Assembly (NCBI GenBank): GCA_040386775.1
Contig: JAZKEU010000016.1
Span: 13,801-77,800, forward strand
Direction of reading: 5' to 3'
Length of the DNA: 64,000 nt
From: Bdellovibrionota bacterium
Lineage (GTDB): Bacteria; Bdellovibrionota; Bdellovibrionia; Bdellovibrionales; JAEYZS01
The notes under the pieces are model-generated. The model was not told the DNA's origin. It did not search any database and saw nothing but the letters and a program-made list of their open reading frames with translations. Positions 1,568 to 31,555 of this stretch are shown here, in pieces (the first letter of the stretch is position 1; every line of letters starts with the position of its first letter). A program made the translations under genes and the position numbers.

Positions 1568-3997
1568 ATGTTGCCGTCTTTTTTCACCATTGTATTTATA
1601 TCTCTTCTAGCTTTACCCGCGCAAAGCAATGATTCCGTTTCTGCAATGGAAAAGGCTAATAAGCAATTATCTTCTATTAATCAATTAACACCCCACTGCG
1701 ACAATTGCGTATTAGAAAATAGAGACAATTCTTATTCATGTAGTTACTTCCTAAATGAATTGCGAACTGAAGACTTTAACCGCATTGTAACCTTGAATGG
1801 TGGGGCAAAGGCTTGCGAAAATTGGTCTTCTAGCCCTGGTACTAAAAATAAATTCTCAAGTGCGGCAGATCTGCAAAATCAACTGGCAAGTATGTTTCCG
1901 GAGGTCGGTGACTCTTCCCACAATCAGGTAAAAAATTGTACAAATGATAAAACAGAATTAGATTCTACAAAAAGATACAAAATTGCGAAATTTTATCATT
2001 ACATCAAGCGTTTCAATCTGGCGGCCTCTCGAGCTTATGAGGAATTATCAGCTATAAATAACTTATTAGGTGAAAACGATGAATTGTCTTGCCTTGGAAA
2101 AGGAACTCTTGATGAAGCTCACACAAGATGTCAGGAGCTAAAAAAATGCCCTGTTTCTAAAAAAGGGGCACTTGCCGAGATAGCCGAAAAATCTAAGCTC
2201 GACGAGCAATCATATCTTCAGATCAAAAAAGAAATCCAAAACTTAGATAAAACCTGCTTAGCGTCTAAAGAAGAGTATGATTCATTAAAATCTTCACTAT
2301 CTGAAAGAAAACCTGAAGTAGAAAAATGTCAGTACGGCGTAGGAACAAGAGATCATGCAAAGATCTGCAGGACATACACCTACAAAGAATACCAAAAAAT
2401 TAGCCAGTGCGATTCTGCAAAAACAAATCTAGGATTTGTTTTGCATATAATTGAAGAATCAAATCCTTGGTTTAAAAGTGATAATTATTTTAATCTGCGA
2501 AAAAATTTTGATGTGCAAAGTTCCATAAAAAAGCAAATGCTAATGAATCGTCAAGAACTCAAGAAAAAAATCATTGAGTTTAGAGATGCTAGTTTTTGTA
2601 TGAATGGATTTTTGAGAGCAGGCCAATGTGATAACAAAAAAATTAGAGGTCTCTTGGCGATTTCTCCAGAAATAGAAAAATCAGAAAATAAATCCTCCAA
2701 ATATTTATCTACTTTTACTTACCTGAACACTCAGTCTTGTGTAGAAGAAAAAATGTCCTTCAACCGAAGGACCGTACCTCTACTACAAGGTGCGGCCATT
2801 GATGTCGGCTTAATTTTGATCGGTGGCGGCGTCGCATCCATTGCCGCCAAAGGAGTTCGCGCAATTTCGTTTGAAAAAAAAGCTGCTGACGCTATCTCTC
2901 TTGGCCGTAAAACCGCAGCGGTCTTAGGCGCAAATTTAGCAGTCGCATCACCTGTCTATTTTGATGCCCTAAAAACATGTTTTCGCCCAAATACAAGAAA
3001 ATTCGACTTCAATACTTCTGCAAAAAATTCTTGTCTAGATTCCTTATCCAATCCATCTTTGGCTCAAGATGAACAAAAGAACTGCGTGACGGCGCTTGCC
3101 TGGGCCGGCGTTGCAACATTACCTCTGGTTCCACTACTTCCACAAAGTAAGAAATTAATCGCCGCCATGGCAGCGATGGAAAAAGAGTCAGGAAGAATAT
3201 TTCTAGCAACATACGGGAAAATAAAAGATTTGAAAGTCGCTGGCTACATCAGAAACAGCGTAAACTTTACTCCTGCCGAAGCGGCGGCACTTCGGACTGA
3301 AGCTGAAAAAATATTTGCATCAACGACATTAAGTGATGCTAAAAAAATTCAAACCGTTTCTTCTCTTTATTTCAGGGCACGAAATAAACATCTTTCAACG
3401 GAAGAGTTAAAGAAAGTGGAGGAAGCTTTAGCTAATGTTCGTAACGATGCTGATTATAGCTATGCGCAGGCAGAAAGAATTTTTATAGAAAAAGGCATCG
3501 ACCCCTTGAGCGTAAAATATCATAACACCCTGGCTCACGAAGCAGAACACGTTATTCAACATCTAAGTGAAAAAAATCGAAGCGCCTTTCTTGATATTGT
3601 TGAATCTATTATTAAAAGAAAAAATCTTTCGCTTGAACCTCCTGGCTCTCAACTTTACCGCAGAGAATTAGAGGCTATCGGTGCTCAATATGACATGCTA
3701 AAACTTTTTCCAGAAGAAATGATCCGAAAAGAAGCTAAAGAAATTCGAGAGAAACTAACAACTATAAGAGATAACCAAGGTAGAGATATAAGAGCTAATT
3801 TTAATTCCTCCATATTATTATCATCGCTAACTATGAGCCGTGATGAATATATAAAGGCGATGAGAAATCATCAGGGCTACAATGGGTACTCAGCAGCAAG
3901 TATAGATGCTCGACTTTTTAGACAAGTCGGACCTGTTTTGGGAGGAATTGCACTGATAGAGGCCTTCAGATACCTTACTGACTCCGAAACCGAATAA
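1568..3997 (+). CDS. Large secreted cysteine-rich protein with HEAEH zincin-like motif
   Basis: The 809-residue protein has an N-terminal signal peptide (MLPSFFTIVFISLLALPAQS) and a first half with many cysteines and coiled-coil-like Lys/Glu stretches. Gly/Ala-rich hydrophobic segments lie near residues 405-430, 445-465 and 515-530. Near the C-terminus is AHEAEHVIQHL, with H657, E658 and H661 matching HExxH. About 40 residues later RRELEAIGAQYD offers E700 or E702 as a possible third zinc ligand. A metallopeptidase function is therefore plausible, but the overall family is not recognised. No strong Shine-Dalgarno is visible before the chosen ATG; the signal peptide supports this start. The stop lies 8 nt from the convergent dus gene. 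Confidence 0.75.
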   Translation: MLPSFFTIVFISLLALPAQSNDSVSAMEKANKQLSSINQLTPHCDNCVLENRDNSYSCSYFLNELRTEDFNRIVTLNGGAKACENWSSSPGTKNKFSSAADLQNQLASMFPEVGDSSHNQVKNCTNDKTELDSTKRYKIAKFYHYIKRFNLAASRAYEELSAINNLLGENDELSCLGKGTLDEAHTRCQELKKCPVSKKGALAEIAEKSKLDEQSYLQIKKEIQNLDKTCLASKEEYDSLKSSLSERKPEVEKCQYGVGTRDHAKICRTYTYKEYQKISQCDSAKTNLGFVLHIIEESNPWFKSDNYFNLRKNFDVQSSIKKQMLMNRQELKKKIIEFRDASFCMNGFLRAGQCDNKKIRGLLAISPEIEKSENKSSKYLSTFTYLNTQSCVEEKMSFNRRTVPLLQGAAIDVGLILIGGGVASIAAKGVRAISFEKKAADAISLGRKTAAVLGANLAVASPVYFDALKTCFRPNTRKFDFNTSAKNSCLDSLSNPSLAQDEQKNCVTALAWAGVATLPLVPLLPQSKKLIAAMAAMEKESGRIFLATYGKIKDLKVAGYIRNSVNFTPAEAAALRTEAEKIFASTTLSDAKKIQTVSSLYFRARNKHLSTEELKKVEEALANVRNDADYSYAQAERIFIEKGIDPLSVKYHNTLAHEAEHVIQHLSEKNRSAFLDIVESIIKRKNLSLEPPGSQLYRRELEAIGAQYDMLKLFPEEMIRKEAKEIREKLTTIRDNQGRDIRANFNSSILLSSLTMSRDEYIKAMRNHQGYNGYSAASIDARLFRQVGPVLGGIALIEAFRYLTDSETE

Positions 3998-7328: not shown

Positions 7329-7404
7329 GGCCCGGTAGCTCAGTTGGTAGAGCAGAGGATTGAAAATCCTTGTGTCGGGGGTTCAATTCCCTCTTGGGCC
7401 ACCA
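7329..7404 (+). tRNA. tRNA-Phe (anticodon GAA), CCA encoded
   Basis: The cloverleaf is complete. Acceptor arm GGCCCGG pairs with TTGGGCC (two G-U pairs), D-arm is GCTC/GAGC, anticodon stem GAGGA/TCCTT encloses TTGAAAA with anticodon GAA at 7362-7364, and the T-loop is TTCAATT. The 3' CCA is encoded. Confidence 0.97.
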
Positions 7405-7436: not shown

Positions 7437-8996
7437 TTATCTACTTGTTAACTCGCAAATGGCTTGAATTAACTCTGTATCATTTAAAGGTTTAGCAATA
7501 TGGCGCTGAAATCCAGCCTGTAGAGCAGCTGTTTTTTCCTCTTCCCTTGTATATGCCGTCAATGCAATTGCCGGTGTACTTTTCTTCCCAAGATCCTCAT
7601 CTGCTTTTCTTAGACTTCTTAAAAAAGCATAACCATCTTCGCCAGGCATACCTATATCACAAACAATTAAATCTAGAAGTGAGTCGTGAATAATAGTTCG
7701 AGCTTCTGCAGCAGACTCTGCTATTTTAACTTCTGCTCCTGCTCTCTTTAACACAAAACTCACTAATGCTAATGTATCTTGGGAATCGTCTACTGTTAAT
7801 ATGCGTAACCCTTTTAAAGAGCGTGCGGTTCTGTCTAAAGATACTATTGCAGAACTTTTCTCCTCAGCAGCGTCCTGAAAAGAATTTATTTTTCCCTTAG
7901 CCTCATCTGCGTAAGGGAGGCAAACAGAGATTGTTGTTCCTTTGCCAAGACCATCACTTTTGATTATGACTTCCCCTCCATGCAACTCTGTAAGATATTT
8001 CACTAGAGATAATCCCAATCCCATGCCTCCGTGCTGCCTTATCATGCTGTTATCCTGTTGGCGAAAACGATCAAATACGTAAGGCAAAAAATCCGCCGTT
8101 ATGCCTTTGCCATTATCCCTAACAACAATTTCTGCCCCAGATTCTTTTGCTTTTAGCATGATTTCTATTTTTCCACCCTCTGGAGTAAATTTTAGAGAAT
8201 TAGAAAGTATGTTCCACATGATCTGATGAATGCGAACCTGATCACAACACACATTTCTTATATCAGGATCAAAATTTGTCGTAAGAGTAATGTGTTTACT
8301 ATTTACAGCTAGATTTATAGCCTGTATGGCATCATTAATTATTGGGACTAAGCTTTGTACTTGAGTGAATAGACTGAGTTTCCCAGTGATGATTCTAGAC
8401 ATATCTAATAAATCATTAATCAACGTAACTAATAATTTAGAATTACGAAGTATAATCTCCATTCCTTCCTGAGATTCTTTTTCGGACAATATTCCTTGAT
8501 TCAGAAGCTCTGAGAAACCCTGAATGACTCCAATTGGAGTTCGTAACTCATGAGATATTGTGGCCAAAAATTCATCTTTGGTTCGACTGGCCTGCTTTAA
8601 GTTCTCCTCTGTTGATTTTCTTTCTATTGCATAACGTATAGATTTAAAAAGTGATTCTCCGTCCATGCGACTTTTACAAATATAATCTTGAGCGCCTTCG
8701 TGAACAGCTTTCATTCCAAAATCCTCATCATCTAATGATGATAAAACAACGATAGGGAGATTCGATGCTTTGGATAACACCTTCTGCAAAGTTTTATCAA
8801 TTGTGCTATCAGGTAAACCCAAGTCCAATAAAATTACATCGATATCCTTTTGGTTTAGTCGCTCAAGTCCATCAGACAATCGATTAGACCAGTGAAGTTT
8901 TACAGAATCTCCGCGTTTGCGAAGAATATGAGCTTGAATCAAATCTTTATGTTCAATCTCATCCTCAATAAGTAAAATTTGTATTGGGGTTTTCAT
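7437..8996 (-). CDS. Hybrid histidine kinase: REC - HisKA - HATPase - REC
   Basis: The 519-residue cytoplasmic protein begins with a receiver domain (QILLIEDE, phospho-acceptor in VILLDLGLP). A HisKA box follows (DEFLATISHELRTPIG), then an ATPase domain (NILSNSLKF, VRDNGKGI, GMGLGLSLVKYL) and a second receiver (RILTVDDS, LIVCDIGMPGEDG, ending AKPLND). The start at 8996 is preferred over an upstream in-frame codon because AAGGA lies 6-7 nt before it. It follows the response regulator gene directly and is the third gene of the operon headed by the ethylene-receptor-like kinase. It probably receives phosphate from or competes with its partners; the output is unknown, as no DNA-binding domain is present. 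Confidence 0.92.
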   Translation of the reverse strand: MKTPIQILLIEDEIEHKDLIQAHILRKRGDSVKLHWSNRLSDGLERLNQKDIDVILLDLGLPDSTIDKTLQKVLSKASNLPIVVLSSLDDEDFGMKAVHEGAQDYICKSRMDGESLFKSIRYAIERKSTEENLKQASRTKDEFLATISHELRTPIGVIQGFSELLNQGILSEKESQEGMEIILRNSKLLVTLINDLLDMSRIITGKLSLFTQVQSLVPIINDAIQAINLAVNSKHITLTTNFDPDIRNVCCDQVRIHQIMWNILSNSLKFTPEGGKIEIMLKAKESGAEIVVRDNGKGITADFLPYVFDRFRQQDNSMIRQHGGMGLGLSLVKYLTELHGGEVIIKSDGLGKGTTISVCLPYADEAKGKINSFQDAAEEKSSAIVSLDRTARSLKGLRILTVDDSQDTLALVSFVLKRAGAEVKIAESAAEARTIIHDSLLDLIVCDIGMPGEDGYAFLRSLRKADEDLGKKSTPAIALTAYTREEEKTAALQAGFQRHIAKPLNDTELIQAICELTSR

Positions 8997-8997
8997 A

Positions 8998-9462
8998 TTA
9001 TTCCTTTGCCTTATGTGGCGCTTGATTCCATACACCCCAATAAAGATTTAGGTCTTCGGCCATTTTTCGAAAACTATTAAAATCTAAGGGTTTTACTAAA
9101 TAACTATTTGCATGTTCTTGATAGGCTCTCGCCCTGTCCGATTCTGCAGCAGAGGTAGTAAGAACTACCACTGGTATAACTTTCAATCGAGAATCCATCT
9201 TGATCTTGCGTAAAACTTCATGCCCATCAATTTTAGGCAATTTGAGATCTAATAAAATAATATCTGGAGCAACCTTTTCTTTATATTTGTCTCGACAAAA
9301 AAGGTAATCTAGCGCTTCGGCTCCATCCCTAACGCGATCAATTTTATTTGTAATTCTATTATTCTCTAAACCCCTAATAACTAACTGCGCATGATCATCA
9401 TCATCTTCGACTAACAAAAATGTAATGAGTCTGGGCAACACAAGGTCATTATTATTGTTCAT
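8998..9462 (-). CDS. Single-domain response regulator (Rcp1-like)
   Basis: The 154-residue stand-alone receiver has an acidic pocket in FLLVEDDDDH, phospho-acceptor D72 in IILLDLKLPKIDG, T102/T103 and K124 in YLVKPLD. The extended loop after beta-3 (DYLFCRDKYKEK) resembles the Rcp1 group that partners phytochrome-type kinases. There is no output domain, so it probably works by phosphotransfer or protein contact. Its start overlaps the end of the upstream kinase by 11 nt, with GGAG before the ATG, so coupled translation and direct partnership are likely. Confidence 0.93.
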   Translation of the reverse strand: MNNNNDLVLPRLITFLLVEDDDDHAQLVIRGLENNRITNKIDRVRDGAEALDYLFCRDKYKEKVAPDIILLDLKLPKIDGHEVLRKIKMDSRLKVIPVVVLTTSAAESDRARAYQEHANSYLVKPLDFNSFRKMAEDLNLYWGVWNQAPHKAKE

Positions 9463-11017
9463 ATTCTTCTTCTCCGGGTTGAGTAAAGTCTTTTGGAAAG
9501 GCTAACCAGAACGTCGCTCCCGCACCAATCTCTGAGTCTATCCAGACGCGCCCACCGTGAAGCTGCATCGCTCTCGATACAATTGTAAGCCCCACACCCG
9601 TTCCTCTATTGTCACTTTCCAATCTTTGGAAAAGGCCGAAAATTTTTTGATGATACTCTTTCGCAATGCCTGGGCCATTATCTCGAATATAAAAGTGAAT
9701 TTCATGACCCATATCTTTGGAGCCAATTTCTATTTTTGGATTTGGAACATCACATGCGTATTTCAGCGCATTGATAATAAGATTTTCTATGGCTTGGTAG
9801 ATACGATGGCGATCACCAGATATCTCGTGTAAGCTTTTTTGGATAATTAATTGCACCGACTTATCCTTGATCTGCTGATTTATATTCTCTGTAATATTTT
9901 TAACTAGCGTAAACATATTGATGAGTTCAACTTGCAGTTTTACCCGACCCATGCGACTTAATTGCAGAAGATCATTTATGAGCTGGCTCATGCGAATATT
10001 TGCACGATCAAGGCGCATTAATGAATCCCCGAGCTTGTCATAATTTTTAGAGGCAATATCTTCTTTAATCATACCCAAAAATCCGGCACTGGTAACAAGT
10101 GGTGATTTCAAATCATGAGATACAGTATAAACAAACTGCTCCATCTCGTGATTTTTTTGGCGAACAGCAGAAGTAGATTGGCGAATACGATCCTCAAGAC
10201 TCTTGCGTTTAGTGATGTCAACAATAGAGGCCAATACAAATCTTCCATTTTCAGTGATCAACGGATTCAGTCCGATCTCTACAGGAAACTCTGATCCGTC
10301 TTTTCGAAGAGCAAAAAGATCTCTCCCTGCGCCCATTTGCCTCGTCTGCGGAGATGCAAAGAAAGAACCTCGGTGCCCCGGGTGAGATTTTCTATATCTC
10401 TCTGGAACTAAAAAATCCATACTTCTTCCTATAATCTCTTCCCTCTGATATCCAAAAAGAGTTTCAAATTCTTTATTGCAAAAAACTACTCCTCCCACTT
10501 GATTCACCATTAGAAGGCCATTAGGAGTTGCCTCAACAACACTGCTAAGCCACTCCTCTCTTTTTTTTAATTCCACATCTTTATTTTTTCTTAGTTCTTC
10601 ATTGATTTTTAATAGATTTGCGCTGTCTTCTTGTAAGTTTTTAATGTCTGGAAAGGCTAACGCTCGCGGCATTAGATAGATAAGTAATATAGCCGTTGCT
10701 AGCGATATTACTGCTGTAAACAGCTTTAAAAATCCATGAATTCCATATTCTGGATTCCAAATTGTTATAATATCCATTATATGGATCGCGCCGCAGAATA
10801 TAATAAAAAGTGCAAACATAATAAAAATCCAATTGAACACTAAATCTTTTCTTTTTCTGACAAAGTAAAAAAGAACTATTAGCATCATAAAATATGAGAG
10901 CGATATGATTACATCCGAGCCCAGATGCAGCCATAAAATATCTGACCTCGCCAAGTAGCTGTGCCCGCGGGGAATAAAGCTGTTAGCGCTGAACAGCTGG
11001 TTTATAAATTGTAGCAT
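9452..11017 (-). CDS. Ethylene-receptor-like sensor histidine kinase (EBD - PAS - HisKA - HATPase)
   Basis: The 521-residue protein opens with three transmembrane segments (about residues 33-54, 63-86, 96-118) that match the ethylene-binding domain of plant ETR1 and cyanobacterial homologues. The ligand/copper residues fall at D35, Y42, I72, C75 and H79, each exactly ten positions after ETR1 D25, Y32, I62, C65 and H69; CGAxH carries the Cu(I) ligands. A coiled coil, a PAS domain (about 155-272), HisKA with H300 in VSHDLKSP and an ATPase domain (DNGPGIA, GTGVGLTIV) follow. It is the first gene of a three-gene operon, with GGAG before the ATG. That it binds ethylene is inferred from conserved residues; small-molecule or copper sensing are alternatives. 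Confidence 0.9.
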   Translation of the reverse strand: MLQFINQLFSANSFIPRGHSYLARSDILWLHLGSDVIISLSYFMMLIVLFYFVRKRKDLVFNWIFIMFALFIIFCGAIHIMDIITIWNPEYGIHGFLKLFTAVISLATAILLIYLMPRALAFPDIKNLQEDSANLLKINEELRKNKDVELKKREEWLSSVVEATPNGLLMVNQVGGVVFCNKEFETLFGYQREEIIGRSMDFLVPERYRKSHPGHRGSFFASPQTRQMGAGRDLFALRKDGSEFPVEIGLNPLITENGRFVLASIVDITKRKSLEDRIRQSTSAVRQKNHEMEQFVYTVSHDLKSPLVTSAGFLGMIKEDIASKNYDKLGDSLMRLDRANIRMSQLINDLLQLSRMGRVKLQVELINMFTLVKNITENINQQIKDKSVQLIIQKSLHEISGDRHRIYQAIENLIINALKYACDVPNPKIEIGSKDMGHEIHFYIRDNGPGIAKEYHQKIFGLFQRLESDNRGTGVGLTIVSRAMQLHGGRVWIDSEIGAGATFWLAFPKDFTQPGEEEYEQ

Positions 11018-12653: not shown

Positions 12654-12743
12654 GGAAGAGTGGCAGAGTGGTTTAATGCAACGGTCTTGAAAACCGTCGG
12701 CCCTTCACGGGGCCCGTGAGTTCGAATCTCACCTCTTCCGCCA
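12654..12743 (+). tRNA. tRNA-Ser (anticodon TGA), CCA encoded
   Basis: Acceptor GGAAGAG pairs perfectly with CTCTTCC. The anticodon stem ACGGT/ACCGT holds loop CTTGAAA with anticodon TGA. A long variable arm (CGGCCCTTCACGGGGCCCG) typical of serine tRNAs follows, then T-loop TTCGAAT. CCA is encoded. Confidence 0.97.
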
Positions 12744-12923
12744 TTTAAATTTTAGAAAACAAATCCTCTCAATAAAAAATCATCAAATATTTTTGATTCT
12801 ATTTATAAAATTAATCTAATTAAAACTTCAACCACCATAGGCAAATACCTATGGAAGCTATTGTTGCTATTTATTAGCCTTCAAAAATAAAACGAGATAC
12901 GGTTAGCGGCAATGGAGGTATTT

Positions 12924-13403
12924 ATGAAAATGTTTATTTTGGGTTTAATTTTTTTATCAGCAAATGCATTTGCGCAAGAGAGTGGTTCGGTTTTTCAACT
13001 TAGTAGTGTACAAGAATGTAATCAGTCTTGTTTATACGCCGAACTTGAAGCCATAGCAGATCTTACAAGTCGTGCAGACGCTAGATGCAGTCCTGCTGCG
13101 GCAAATCGAATCTCTGACTGGCAAACGAATGTGACTGGTTATGGTAGACTAACAACGACTGCAATCTTCTCGTGCGAAAAAGAGAACAAATCAGTTTTTC
13201 AAATCAGCGGCGCAAAAGAATGTGGACTGGATTGCTTACAAGCTGAGATTGAAGCTATGGCAGATGCTAAGGCCCGTGCAGAAGCTAGATGCAGTCCTCT
13301 TGCTGCAAAGCAAATTTCTAACTGGAATACAGATGTAACTGGCTACGGCAGACTTATTACAACAGCGGTCTTTTCATGTCAAAACGAACAAGCTAATAAT
13401 TAA
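12924..13403 (+). CDS. Secreted protein made of two tandem 68-residue four-cysteine repeats
   Basis: The 159-residue product has a signal peptide (MKMFILGLIFLSANAFAQ) followed by two copies of one domain, residues 22-89 and 90-157. Each copy contains SVFQ, xECxxxC, ARCSP, W and TGYGRL then a final FSC. Cysteines fall at 32, 36, 55, 84 and again at 100, 104, 123, 152, so each copy probably forms two disulfides in the periplasm or outside. No known family is recognised. An upstream in-frame ATG at 12912 is rejected because GGAGG sits inside it and serves the ATG at 12924. A terminator follows. Confidence 0.85.
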   Translation: MKMFILGLIFLSANAFAQESGSVFQLSSVQECNQSCLYAELEAIADLTSRADARCSPAAANRISDWQTNVTGYGRLTTTAIFSCEKENKSVFQISGAKECGLDCLQAEIEAMADAKARAEARCSPLAAKQISNWNTDVTGYGRLITTAVFSCQNEQANN

Positions 13404-26338: not shown

Positions 26339-29300
26339 ATGAAAAAACTGATTAATGAAGTTGTGATATTCCTGCTGATCATCTCGTTCACCAGCAACAC
26401 TTTGGCAGCAAATACGAATTCATCTTCTGACAAGAAGCCATTGATTGCCATGACTCCAGGAGCGGAGACGCGCGCACAACCTACGCCTAAAACATTCTCG
26501 GAAATAGTCCTCGAGCATCTTGGTTTAGGTCCAAAGCCAACTATCACTCCGCAGGTTCAAAAGGCCAATATAGGAAAGTCCGGCAAGCATACTCAAGATA
26601 AGTATGGGGCTACAGAAACTCCCAACTCATTACAAATTCAAAAAGACATTATAAAAATTAGAGAAAAAAGAGAGATGGCAAGAAAATTTAGAGAGTTCAT
26701 CGCTCTAGAACAAAAAAACGAACATACTTATAGAATACAGCTTGAGCAACAAAGAAAATCTATAAACTCTCAGACTATAAAACAAATCAATGATTACTAT
26801 GAAAGAATAGATACTGAAAAATCTAACAATTCATCTTTGGATGCAAACGTTATCAATTCCAGAGAATACCAATTGATTGATGCTTACTACGTGTCAGCAA
26901 TTCTAAGATACGTTGAAACAAACAAACAAAAATCAGAATCCAATCCAGATGCAAAATTCTCTATGACTGAATTTCAAGCATACTTAGATACAACACAAAA
27001 AATGATGAGTAAGCTCTTTGGTTTGAGTGCCGTAGCAACCAAAAATTATTCTTATGAACATCTTTTGGATATTCATGAAAAATTATCAAGCCTACCTGAT
27101 AAACCTACAGTCATTATGGATATAAGAAAAAATCCATCTACACAAATAGAGGTAGATTCAGATGATGACTTGCTTTATGCCCTCGCAGGTTCTTCAGAAA
27201 TTTTAAGATTTGCCTTAGAAAATTCATTGGCCCTGGTTACATATCAAGATGGTTTAATGCCTAGAAATGCAGATGGATCAATTGATGATGAGTCCATCGT
27301 AAAAATTCGAGATAGATACGGCAATGAACAAGATATGAAACTCAGTATCTTTATGATGTTGATGGGTGACCGCAGCGGCAACAGAACAAAGTCTTTTGCC
27401 CATGGTAATTCTTTATTCGCATTAAGATATCTTCTTTCTCGCTACGAATCGGAGAAAAGAAAAATTGAAGAGATCAAAGCCAACAATAAAAGAACAGTAG
27501 AAGTTGCAGCAAATCTGTTAAGAAGAAATACAGAGAACCCGGTGCAACCAGAACTATTTAATAGCGGAACAACCGACTCGTCAAAAAGAAAGCTTGGTAT
27601 CGTCAATGCCGATGGCTCTTTGGATTTATCCGGAATAGAACTTCCCGCACTCAAGGCTGTCCCTAGAGAAGAAAATATTCGTTTGCAAAATTTAGTTGAA
27701 ATTTTTCAACGTAGTAATCAAGCTGATAACCAAACAAGAAATGGGTTCTATTATCCAACCTCCAGAACAAACTACATTCTAAAGGTAACGCCTGAAGAAA
27801 AAGAACAATTCAAAAAAGAATTTCCAGAGTTAGAATTCGAGAGTCTCGGACGCAAAGGGAATTATATTCACCTCCGTCTAAAATCTGCAGACCAAAAAAA
27901 GATAACTCTTATGAGATATAAGGTTCAGCCTGAACTCATTAAAAAATTCTCTCCCCTCATGATAGAAAAAACTCTTGTTTCAGAAGTTAATTCTTCTGTT
28001 AAACATGCCGCCGCTGTATTCCCTATAGAATCTGTCTCTTTCTATATCGGTATGTATGTTAATACGATGCTTAACCTTAGTATTAAGTATAAAGATGATC
28101 CTGCTGCGCTAGAAAAATATTATCACGAAGCTACCTCTGCAGCTGGTCAGTTAAGCTTTTTTGCCTTCATGCTTGGAAACAGAATATTCACAAACTTAAT
28201 TGGTCCACATATAGGATCTAAACAAATATTACATCAACTCCTAGGATTCCTTGGTATGGGTGTAGGTTCTATTGCTTCTGCCGGTTTTCATGATGTTATA
28301 TCAATGACAAAAAGCTGTGCCATTAATCTTATGGGTGTTGACGAATTTGATGGCAAAGAACAACAAAAAGTTCTGCAAGAATGTCAGGCAACTTACGATA
28401 GAGTGGTCAGTTCCGAAAACATGCATAATTATATCGTATCATTTATGAATATTGCGATAGCCGGTGGTGCGTCTACAGCGACAACCGCCATTGCCGGATT
28501 GACTACTTCCGTCGCTGCGCAAGGATCAAAATGGGCGGTGCAAGAAGCCGCACTCGCCACCGGTAACAAGACACTTCTTCGTGCTGGTTCGACATTGGAA
28601 GGTCTTGCGATGGAAATCAACGTCGCAAATCAAGAGTTGCGCGCCTATTCTCTAACCAAAAGCGTTATGGCCGGTGGGAAGCTTACAACTTCATCTAGAC
28701 TGGCAAGTTGGTTTGGATTTATTCCTGGAAAAGAAGGAAACTTAATGCGTATCAGTTTAAGCTTCGGACGCTTAGGTTGGAAACTTGTAGGCGGTATTGT
28801 TATCTTCTTCCAGTGGGATGAATGGTTTAGACCTTATACCTACAAATTTGAACAGAAAACTATGGGTGCAGGAAAAAAATTAGGATCACTGCACACCAGA
28901 CAATATGAGCAGCTGAGCTACCTAGAAAAAAATAACTGGACAATGCCACTTTGTATTCTCGATGGACTAAGAACGCCTGCGCCAGGCCCAGTACCTGCTG
29001 ATTGCGATCCATACAAAAATTCTACCGATATTAAAGAACAATCAAAGCTGTGGAGAGATGCTCTATTGTATAAGTTCATGGGGTCTTATTCAAACTGGTT
29101 AATGTATATCGAGAACTACCAATCTCAGTGGTCGATGACTCAGGAGTTTTACAAGCAACTCTCGAGCTATACTTATATCGCTCGATCTGAAAATTTTGAT
29201 GGAAAAAAACTAAGTTACTTTAATCCATTACTCCACGATGATGACTTTAATGGCGTTCTCTATTCAGATAGAGTTAAATTATTTGATCCCTCGATGATGG

Positions 29301-31555
29301 ACGTTGTGCGAGACGAGATGGGAGAAATCACTTTTGACGGAATGAATAAACTACGCGCACAAAGAGTTATTGATTTGCTACCAGCGATTGGTAACAAAAT
29401 TAAGGAAATTCAAGCAAAGATTGATCAAACCAAAGGGCCAAAGAACTCCCTGGCTGAGAGTCTTATTGTTAAGGACTTGATTGCTACCAAGACTCTACTA
29501 TCAAAAATTTCTAAGAATATTGTAAATTACCTCGTTTTATCTGAAACACAAAGAGCTAAGGAAAATAGCTCTATCCTTGATTTCTTAAAAGGAAAAAAAT
29601 CTACAACGGCAACCGATGTTTCCCTTGGAATAGTAAGAAGTCATTTCTCTAAAAAAGAACTGAATGGCGAAGACTTACCTGTATACAAAGATTTTTCTCC
29701 TTTGATCCATGTTATTGATATTATCAATACATCTTTTAAGGACTACACAAGTACCTACAGAAATTATAAAGCAGAGGGGCCTACACGCGAGAAAACTCCT
29801 ATAGAATCACAAATGATGTATGCGGCTTACGAAAAAGCAACATTCTTTAAAGGCCTCAGAGATTATTTGGGCAATCCTTATCCTGCCTCAAGAGGAGAGG
29901 CTTTTGTCCGTGCTTTTGATGATTTTGTTAAAAATTCTTATACAGAAGAACAAATTAAAAAAATGTCTAAAAAAACCGGATCTGTTGGTAGAGATTTACT
30001 TTGGAACGCTGTATGCGGTGAGCACTACATTGGCGAAGCAGATCTTGAAAACGATCCCATGAAAAGCAATATCATTGATGAAGAATGGGGTGAAGACGCT
30101 GACTTTAAAATACCGCGCCTTGTTCAAAAAAGGAACGATAAGCTTTGCTCAAACTACAAAGTTTCGCATCCTACCCGTGGCTTAAAAGTAACAGATTCAG
30201 TTTTGGATTACTTAATGAGAAATTCTGAACTTGGAAAAAGCTCCGGTGATTTTGATTCTCTATGGAAGGATATAATTCAATTAAAATTGGAAAAAATTTA
30301 TAATAAATTTGATAAAAGCTATCAAGTGTTAATTCGCAAGAATTATATACCAAATTTAACTGGTGAGATTACAGAACCTTCTGAACCAAATCTAGCTGAA
30401 AAAATTAATAACTTCACCCCTACTGGTCAAATTACTAATTTCATTTCTGCGAAGCTCGAGCAAAAAATTGATCTTTCTGGAACTCCAATAGAGGTTTATA
30501 AGAAAATCAAAGCACAAAGAAATTCTTATGTCGCAAATGTAGGGCTCAATGTTATACAAACATATGTAGGCGAAGTGGATATTTATCTAAAAGTATTAGA
30601 TAGTGTTTTTAAAAATTCTATAAAACAAAATTTCAGAATAAGGTCTGCACAATTGAAGAAACCTGAAGAAATTAATAAACTCAGAAGAGAGTTATCTGAT
30701 CGTACGCAAAAATTTGATCATGTAGTGAAAAACTTTAAAGAATCTTTCATAAAAATTCTTTTGAGCTTTAAAGAAAAAAAGGTAGATGTAGAATCTGAGT
30801 ATGCAGCCTTGCTTTTTTCATACTATAACATTATCAAATCTGTTGGAATTGTCGGCGATATCGAAATCAAACAAGAAAATGAAGATATCCAAGGCGTGGG
30901 AGAAACTACAACTAAAATTGTAGCCCATATTTCTAGAAGTACTTTCGGAACGAAAATTTTGGCTATGTATTTTGAGAAGAAGCAGAAAAAGGAATTGGAA
31001 GATCTTGTCAAAAAAATGGGAGCTACAGATGATGTTTCAAAGAGCTTCGTACAGGCCCAGGCTCTCGGTGATTTAGTTAACGAAAATTTCGCAAGCAAGA
31101 TGAAAACAAGAATTGAGACTCACCCGGCGATCAAATCTACCTTTGAAGATCTAATGAAAAAAGTAGAAGCCGAGAAATCCATAAACAATCCCTATACTCA
31201 GGCTATAAACATGTCTTTACCTGTCCTGGACGAAGAACGTAGAATCCTATTTCAGCCTGCTGGTACACTGGCGTTTAGCTTAACAAATGAATCCGGTAGT
31301 CAGTATTTAATGAATATTCCTAGTGTTATTGATACTTTGAAAAATAAAGAATCTAATCCTCTCGACCTTCTTATGGCAAAGTTAAGCAATCAGTATTTAG
31401 CAGTCGTCGGTGCCGCCCGCAGTATCGATGTGCTGATGGAAGAAGTATATTTTAATGTGAATATCCTAGAAGCAGCAGACATTAATAATGAGTATAGACA
31501 GATTGAAATACAAAAAGCAGATAAGTTCCGCCCTGGAACAATGAGGAGGAATTAA
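26339..31555 (+). CDS. Very large exported protein of unknown function
   Basis: The 1738-residue product begins with a signal peptide (INEVVIFLLIISFTSNTLAA). The N-terminal third is Lys/Glu-rich with coiled-coil character near residues 95-160. A central block, about 560-830, holds several Gly/Ala-rich hydrophobic segments (for example LLGFLGMGVGSIASAGF and MNIAIAGGASTATTAIAG), which could be membrane-inserting. The last 900 residues are mainly helical and charged. I recognise no domain. Codon use and composition look like the neighbours, so recent transfer is not suggested. A sigma-54-like promoter lies just upstream, and a smaller secreted orphan follows. Confidence 0.85.
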   Translation: MKKLINEVVIFLLIISFTSNTLAANTNSSSDKKPLIAMTPGAETRAQPTPKTFSEIVLEHLGLGPKPTITPQVQKANIGKSGKHTQDKYGATETPNSLQIQKDIIKIREKREMARKFREFIALEQKNEHTYRIQLEQQRKSINSQTIKQINDYYERIDTEKSNNSSLDANVINSREYQLIDAYYVSAILRYVETNKQKSESNPDAKFSMTEFQAYLDTTQKMMSKLFGLSAVATKNYSYEHLLDIHEKLSSLPDKPTVIMDIRKNPSTQIEVDSDDDLLYALAGSSEILRFALENSLALVTYQDGLMPRNADGSIDDESIVKIRDRYGNEQDMKLSIFMMLMGDRSGNRTKSFAHGNSLFALRYLLSRYESEKRKIEEIKANNKRTVEVAANLLRRNTENPVQPELFNSGTTDSSKRKLGIVNADGSLDLSGIELPALKAVPREENIRLQNLVEIFQRSNQADNQTRNGFYYPTSRTNYILKVTPEEKEQFKKEFPELEFESLGRKGNYIHLRLKSADQKKITLMRYKVQPELIKKFSPLMIEKTLVSEVNSSVKHAAAVFPIESVSFYIGMYVNTMLNLSIKYKDDPAALEKYYHEATSAAGQLSFFAFMLGNRIFTNLIGPHIGSKQILHQLLGFLGMGVGSIASAGFHDVISMTKSCAINLMGVDEFDGKEQQKVLQECQATYDRVVSSENMHNYIVSFMNIAIAGGASTATTAIAGLTTSVAAQGSKWAVQEAALATGNKTLLRAGSTLEGLAMEINVANQELRAYSLTKSVMAGGKLTTSSRLASWFGFIPGKEGNLMRISLSFGRLGWKLVGGIVIFFQWDEWFRPYTYKFEQKTMGAGKKLGSLHTRQYEQLSYLEKNNWTMPLCILDGLRTPAPGPVPADCDPYKNSTDIKEQSKLWRDALLYKFMGSYSNWLMYIENYQSQWSMTQEFYKQLSSYTYIARSENFDGKKLSYFNPLLHDDDFNGVLYSDRVKLFDPSMMDVVRDEMGEITFDGMNKLRAQRVIDLLPAIGNKIKEIQAKIDQTKGPKNSLAESLIVKDLIATKTLLSKISKNIVNYLVLSETQRAKENSSILDFLKGKKSTTATDVSLGIVRSHFSKKELNGEDLPVYKDFSPLIHVIDIINTSFKDYTSTYRNYKAEGPTREKTPIESQMMYAAYEKATFFKGLRDYLGNPYPASRGEAFVRAFDDFVKNSYTEEQIKKMSKKTGSVGRDLLWNAVCGEHYIGEADLENDPMKSNIIDEEWGEDADFKIPRLVQKRNDKLCSNYKVSHPTRGLKVTDSVLDYLMRNSELGKSSGDFDSLWKDIIQLKLEKIYNKFDKSYQVLIRKNYIPNLTGEITEPSEPNLAEKINNFTPTGQITNFISAKLEQKIDLSGTPIEVYKKIKAQRNSYVANVGLNVIQTYVGEVDIYLKVLDSVFKNSIKQNFRIRSAQLKKPEEINKLRRELSDRTQKFDHVVKNFKESFIKILLSFKEKKVDVESEYAALLFSYYNIIKSVGIVGDIEIKQENEDIQGVGETTTKIVAHISRSTFGTKILAMYFEKKQKKELEDLVKKMGATDDVSKSFVQAQALGDLVNENFASKMKTRIETHPAIKSTFEDLMKKVEAEKSINNPYTQAINMSLPVLDEERRILFQPAGTLAFSLTNESGSQYLMNIPSVIDTLKNKESNPLDLLMAKLSNQYLAVVGAARSIDVLMEEVYFNVNILEAADINNEYRQIEIQKADKFRPGTMRRN

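Follow-up and report, generated by a model that had tools for sequence, protein, structure and literature searches.

Plant ethylene receptors carry GAF domains, and their output is mainly kinase-independent. In ETR1, Cys65 and His69 are, with Asp25, the copper ligands, and Y32 is presumably one of the seven residues of its ethylene site. It has been concluded from ETR1 mutagenesis that ethylene binding needs seven residues (PMC11819568; PMC6682694); a further paper places I35 and P36 among the essential ones (PMC6586836). P36L is the change of tomato Never-ripe, in which the plant is ethylene-insensitive (PMC6727826); in SlETR1 an exchange in the first helix at a location described as similar, P51L, gives complete insensitivity (PMC9911886), and P36L has also been listed for a squash receptor (PMC8012379). 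The insensitivity caused by P36L is a whole-plant phenotype, in a protein other than the kinase described here. Few of the known bacterial ethylene-binding domains (EBDs) have been put to the test; as a rule, a domain with the seven ETR1 residues is called functional. The tested protein closest to ours is AzoEtr1 of Azospirillum brasilense, for which ethylene binding was shown both in yeast and in A. brasilense itself; the gene of its regulator, AzoRR-etr1, overlaps the AzoEtr1 stop codon (PMC11819568). SynEtr1 (slr1212) and other cyanobacterial receptors have the same membrane domain, and SynEtr1 combines a histidine-kinase output to a regulator, a trait in common with our kinase, with a light-sensing cyanobacteriochrome section, in which it differs (PMC6682694).

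In this study, a stretch of 64,000 nucleotides from a member of the Bdellovibrionota (contig JAZKEU010000016.1; hereafter the window) was analysed. A single, intact ORF encodes a sensor histidine kinase with the only ETR1-type domain of the genome (Table 1). The catalytic motifs of the kinase and of the receiver are intact by sequence check, and an NCBIfam search of the kinase returned generic kinase matches only, all below cut-off. Two tRNA genes lie on the forward strand near the locus, tRNA-Phe (GAA) at 7329-7404 and tRNA-Ser (TGA) at 12654-12743; a terminator-like match at 7380 falls inside the former. Three other ORFs of the window have no Pfam match: 1738 aa at 26339-31555, 809 aa at 1568-3997 and 163 aa at 12912-13403, the last with a signal-like start and an internal repeat.

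Table 1. Features of the kinase locus (window positions; residue numbers are those of the kinase)
Feature	Position	Strand	Evidence or remark
Sensor histidine kinase, 521 aa, ATG start	9452..11017	-	ETR1-type membrane domain, PAS, HisKA, HATPase_c
PRGHSYLA, residues 16-23	10949..10972	-	PHGHC(Y/F)LW in homologues: H17R, C20S, W23A
ETR1_N / ethylene-binding domain, residues 27-121	10655..10939	-	Pfam PF25487; three helices in AF2 model
D35	10913..10915	-	ETR1 D25, conserved
Y42	10892..10894	-	ETR1 Y32, conserved
M45-L46	10880..10885	-	Codons ATG CTA; replace ETR1 I35-P36
I72-I-F-C75	10793..10804	-	ETR1 I62 and C65, conserved
H79	10781..10783	-	ETR1 H69, conserved; I78 just before
K98	10724..10726	-	ETR1 K91, AzoEtr1 K98; conserved output residue (PMC11819568)
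PAS domain, residues 165-270	10208..10525	-	Pfam PAS_9, E 1.9e-15
HisKA domain, residues 292-357	9947..10144	-	Phospho-acceptor His 301 in SHDLKSP
HATPase_c, residues 401-509	9491..9817	-	N, G1, F and G2 boxes intact
Single-domain response regulator, 154 aa	8998..9462	-	Overlaps kinase stop by 11 nt
REC-HisKA-HATPase-REC hybrid kinase	7437..8996	-	ATG at 8996 is the better start and follows the regulator stop directly

The membrane domain matches ETR1_N along positions 2-96 of the 97 of the profile with 116.9 bits (E 5.1e-34), against a curated cut-off of 27 bits, and it has the C75, H79 and D35 of the family. Three N-terminal transmembrane helices are indicated by hydropathy, and the AlphaFold2 model has three long helices at residues 25-55, 62-87 and 91-120 (mean pLDDT 92.9). 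The preliminary description had placed D35, Y42, I72, C75 and H79 at exactly +10 relative to ETR1 D25, Y32, I62, C65 and H69, within three helices of ETR1-like sequence; the alignment bears out the offset, and BLAST with Arabidopsis ETR1 aligned 91 residues at 34% identity. The profile search that it proposed led to ETR1_N and not to an unrelated membrane-sensor family. Its claim of a complete ETR1 residue set has to be withdrawn: the domain has five of the seven ethylene-binding residues, with M45 and L46 in place of I35 and P36, and by the seven-residue rule the protein would not count as a functional ethylene receptor. Homology to the ETR1 ethylene-binding domain, far beyond chance, is strongly supported. 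Among solved structures no relative was found by sequence, nor by fold at E<=0.001; the domain is therefore without a PDB template.

The layout of the locus is that of AzoEtr1 (L144): an EBD-PAS-HK protein, of 521 aa against 525 aa, with an adjacent, overlapping single-domain regulator and with common numbering of D35, Y42, I72, C75, H79 and K98. The two EBDs are 39% identical; however, AzoEtr1 keeps I45-P46 and C20, whereas the window kinase has M45-L46 and S20. At 25% identity for the kinase and 24% for the regulator, with other subtypes and a different transmitter lineage, the pair is not orthologous to AzoEtr1/AzoRR, and no hybrid kinase gene like that of the window has been reported beside AzoEtr1. 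Cyanobacterial EBDs are 46-57% identical to that of the window, but those sampled keep all seven residues. The plant ETR1 family has a homologous three-helix copper/ethylene domain; wild-type plant receptors carry I35 and P36, in contrast to the M45 and L46 of the window, and the second of these exchanges is that of the Never-ripe mutant (PMC6727826). A plasmid-borne kinase of Legionella adelaidensis (L149:2257-4862) has repeated PAS domains and a neighbouring regulator, is without an ETR1-type domain, and shares 43% identity with the window kinase over its PAS-HK part. This relative, together with the 25% identity of the kinase half to that of AzoEtr1, suggests domain shuffling in the history of the kinase.

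In a domain tree built on few columns and weak at many of its forks, from which only this grouping is relied on, the window sequence joins L002, L005, L016, L017 and L109 in a six-member clade (support 99/89). The phylogeny against bacterial homologues proposed in the preliminary description thus nests the window among canonical Bdellovibrionota domains: the five other members come from the window's order or phylum and all have the seven residues. The guess, made from the letters alone, of a Gram-negative and putatively predatory bacterium fits as well, the host sharing its order with a genome labelled 'Bdellovibrio sp.' (L016/L026). An orthologous operon was identified in the same order (L136, in G036; its EBD is also L002), with 58% identity in the EBD, 64% in the PAS-HK part and 73% in the regulator, which adjoins the kinase in the same position. 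That kinase differs in its length of 787 aa, in two extra PAS-like segments and in its motifs PHGHCYLW, AIP and CGATH, with all residues canonical; unlike in the window, no hybrid kinase gene was found in the 9.5 kb covered. Because this same-order orthologue and the clade mates are canonical, the residue changes are placed on the window's own lineage.

The variant was compared with 168 non-redundant homologous domains. All seven residues are kept in 129 of them; the combination DYMLICH is unique to the window, and so is the pair I35M and P36L. Position 35 of ETR1 is Ile in 162 of the 168 and Met in the window only, while the residues at position 36 are Pro (136), Ser (21), Ala (7), Leu (3) and Thr (1). 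One of the other two Leu-36 domains (L132) is also altered at Y32 and I62, and the second (L181) is without the copper ligands. Where Ser or Ala occurs at position 36 (28/168), the other site residues are mostly retained; some bacterial versions may be able to do without P36. A group with Ser at this position and the other six residues kept (DYISICH in 16), mostly from the window's phylum, includes L122, L134, L158, L160, L161, L165, L166 and L172, among others. Just before the copper His, Thr is found in 151 of the 168 homologues, against I78 in the window. In the subset of 161 sequences with both copper ligands, conservation reaches 85% or more at 29 columns; the window departs at six of these (H17R, C20S, W23A, I45M, P46L and T78I) and each of the 25 nearest homologues at none or one, with conservation of the N-terminal motif inflated by 80 loci that were collected by the PHGHC pattern. 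The nearest Bdellovibrionota sequences were found by searches without this pattern. Kept in the window are all copper-site residues as well as F68, F71, G76, W87, Y91, K98, T101 and S105. The variant is known from a single sequence, and no closer relative with M45/L46 was found in viral contigs or among 369 genomes of the phylum. A sequencing error is unlikely, as several separate codons differ.

ETR1-type domains were detected in 24 of the 144 genomes searched from the window's class, in 59 of 369 from its phylum and, for the phylum to which a verrucomicrobial genome belongs, in 20 of 289. In GTDB the matching stretches numbered at least 573, with the best of them from cyanobacteria, Bdellovibrionota and Verrucomicrobia; plasmid matches include Azospirillum, Rhizobium, Novosphingobium and Deinococcus, and the domain also occurs in Alphaproteobacteria. 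The preliminary description had such domains as known from plants and cyanobacteria. The range is wider than that, and the Azospirillum receptor is experimentally proven (PMC11819568). Such domains are common in bacteria, and the presence of one in a Bdellovibrio-order host is not new in kind. A literature search by titles and abstracts retrieved, at that level, no paper linking Bdellovibrio with an ethylene receptor. Two genomes of the window's own family were inspected: G001 is without such a domain, and G002 has a degenerate copy (L015). L015 reads DFLALDS, has lost the Cys/His copper ligands and heads an open 775-aa frame. Another ETR1-type domain, L019 (G073:C1:105046-105333), contains one in-frame TAG, possibly marking a pseudogene or a sequence error.

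The 154-aa regulator is the probable first phosphate acceptor of the kinase, and the hybrid kinase is a possible next relay step. As a conserved partner the hybrid kinase was dropped, since the orthologous operon L136 does not include it. From the overlap of the genes alone we infer co-transcription of the kinase operon; the result of a promoter scan was no better than chance. One P-type ATPase encoded in the genome carries the motifs CSMC and CPC together with helix motifs of the copper type; it falls below the NCBIfam Cu-ATPase cut-off and is assigned to the Cu(I) type from its motifs. With this ATPase encoded, a supply of copper to the sensor is possible.

On balance, and with modest confidence, we regard the kinase as an AzoEtr1-type Cu(I)-dependent sensor with a drifted ethylene site, which would feed the regulator and perhaps the hybrid kinase. 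The membrane domain would dimerise and hold Cu(I) through C75 and H79. A change at the copper site would then affect both the autophosphorylation at H301 and the transfer of phosphate to the regulator, from which it might be passed onward to the hybrid kinase, a flow unsupported by the orthologues. Less certainly, the domain would have a lower affinity for ethylene or none, since Met and Leu stand where ETR1 has I35 and P36, Ile takes the place of the Thr that precedes the copper His, and the His/Cys/Trp motif at the N-terminus has disappeared. In that case the signal that matters could be copper status or some other small ligand, or the response to ethylene could persist in weakened form. We lean to reduced or lost ethylene binding in the window domain. 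Between normal ethylene sensing and the alternatives, copper sensing or a response to ethylene in weakened form, the odds appear equal. The failure of the seven-residue rule lowers the claim for ethylene sensing and not that for a receptor-like build and signalling: the kinase is built like ETR1-type receptors and probably signals like them.

A more specific proposal, which we put forward tentatively, is that P36L, I35M and T68I became fixed in a lineage that lost the His/Cys motif at the N-terminus, yet retained the copper ligands and an intact signalling operon, and so arrived at a sensor of copper(I) or another small ligand, or at a locked-on kinase. It is rather unlikely that the protein is a fully working ethylene receptor like AzoEtr1, in which M45/L46 and the N-terminal changes are tolerated and which responds to plant or microbial ethylene. 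The five retained site residues with K98 and S105, the strong family score, the canonical orthologue in the same order and the tolerance at position 36 implied by the 28 Ser/Ala homologues speak for it; these are set against a Met at position 35 that occurs in the window only where 162 homologues have Ile, the joint alteration of six conserved positions, the identity of P36L with the Never-ripe lesion (PMC6727826), and the listing of I35 and P36 as essential for ETR1 ethylene binding (PMC6586836). We consider it improbable that the membrane domain is decaying or is purely a structural anchor, with the PAS domain as the sensor and the copper ligands as leftovers. The loss of several conserved positions at once would fit such decay, as would the more degenerate L015 of a same-family genome, without the Cys/His pair, and the existence of PAS-HK-RR relatives without such a domain, as in L. 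adelaidensis; however, the ORF is intact, the AF2 model is confident, and the copper-site residues are all kept, along with the eight further residues from F68 to S105 named above. A chance resemblance in an unrelated three-helix sensor, in which generic hydrophobic helices align by composition, is refuted by the Pfam E of 5e-34, the 58% identity to the canonical orthologue, whose operon is shared, and the supported tree placement, and its probability is negligible.

The locus adds a record of ETR1-type domains in the Bdellovibrio order. With its copper site and full operon, and with the change that makes tomato ethylene-blind, the window protein is a natural test of the seven-residue rule. 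Comparison with the canonical orthologue could separate copper-binding from ethylene-binding residues and show whether there are other ligands in the family.
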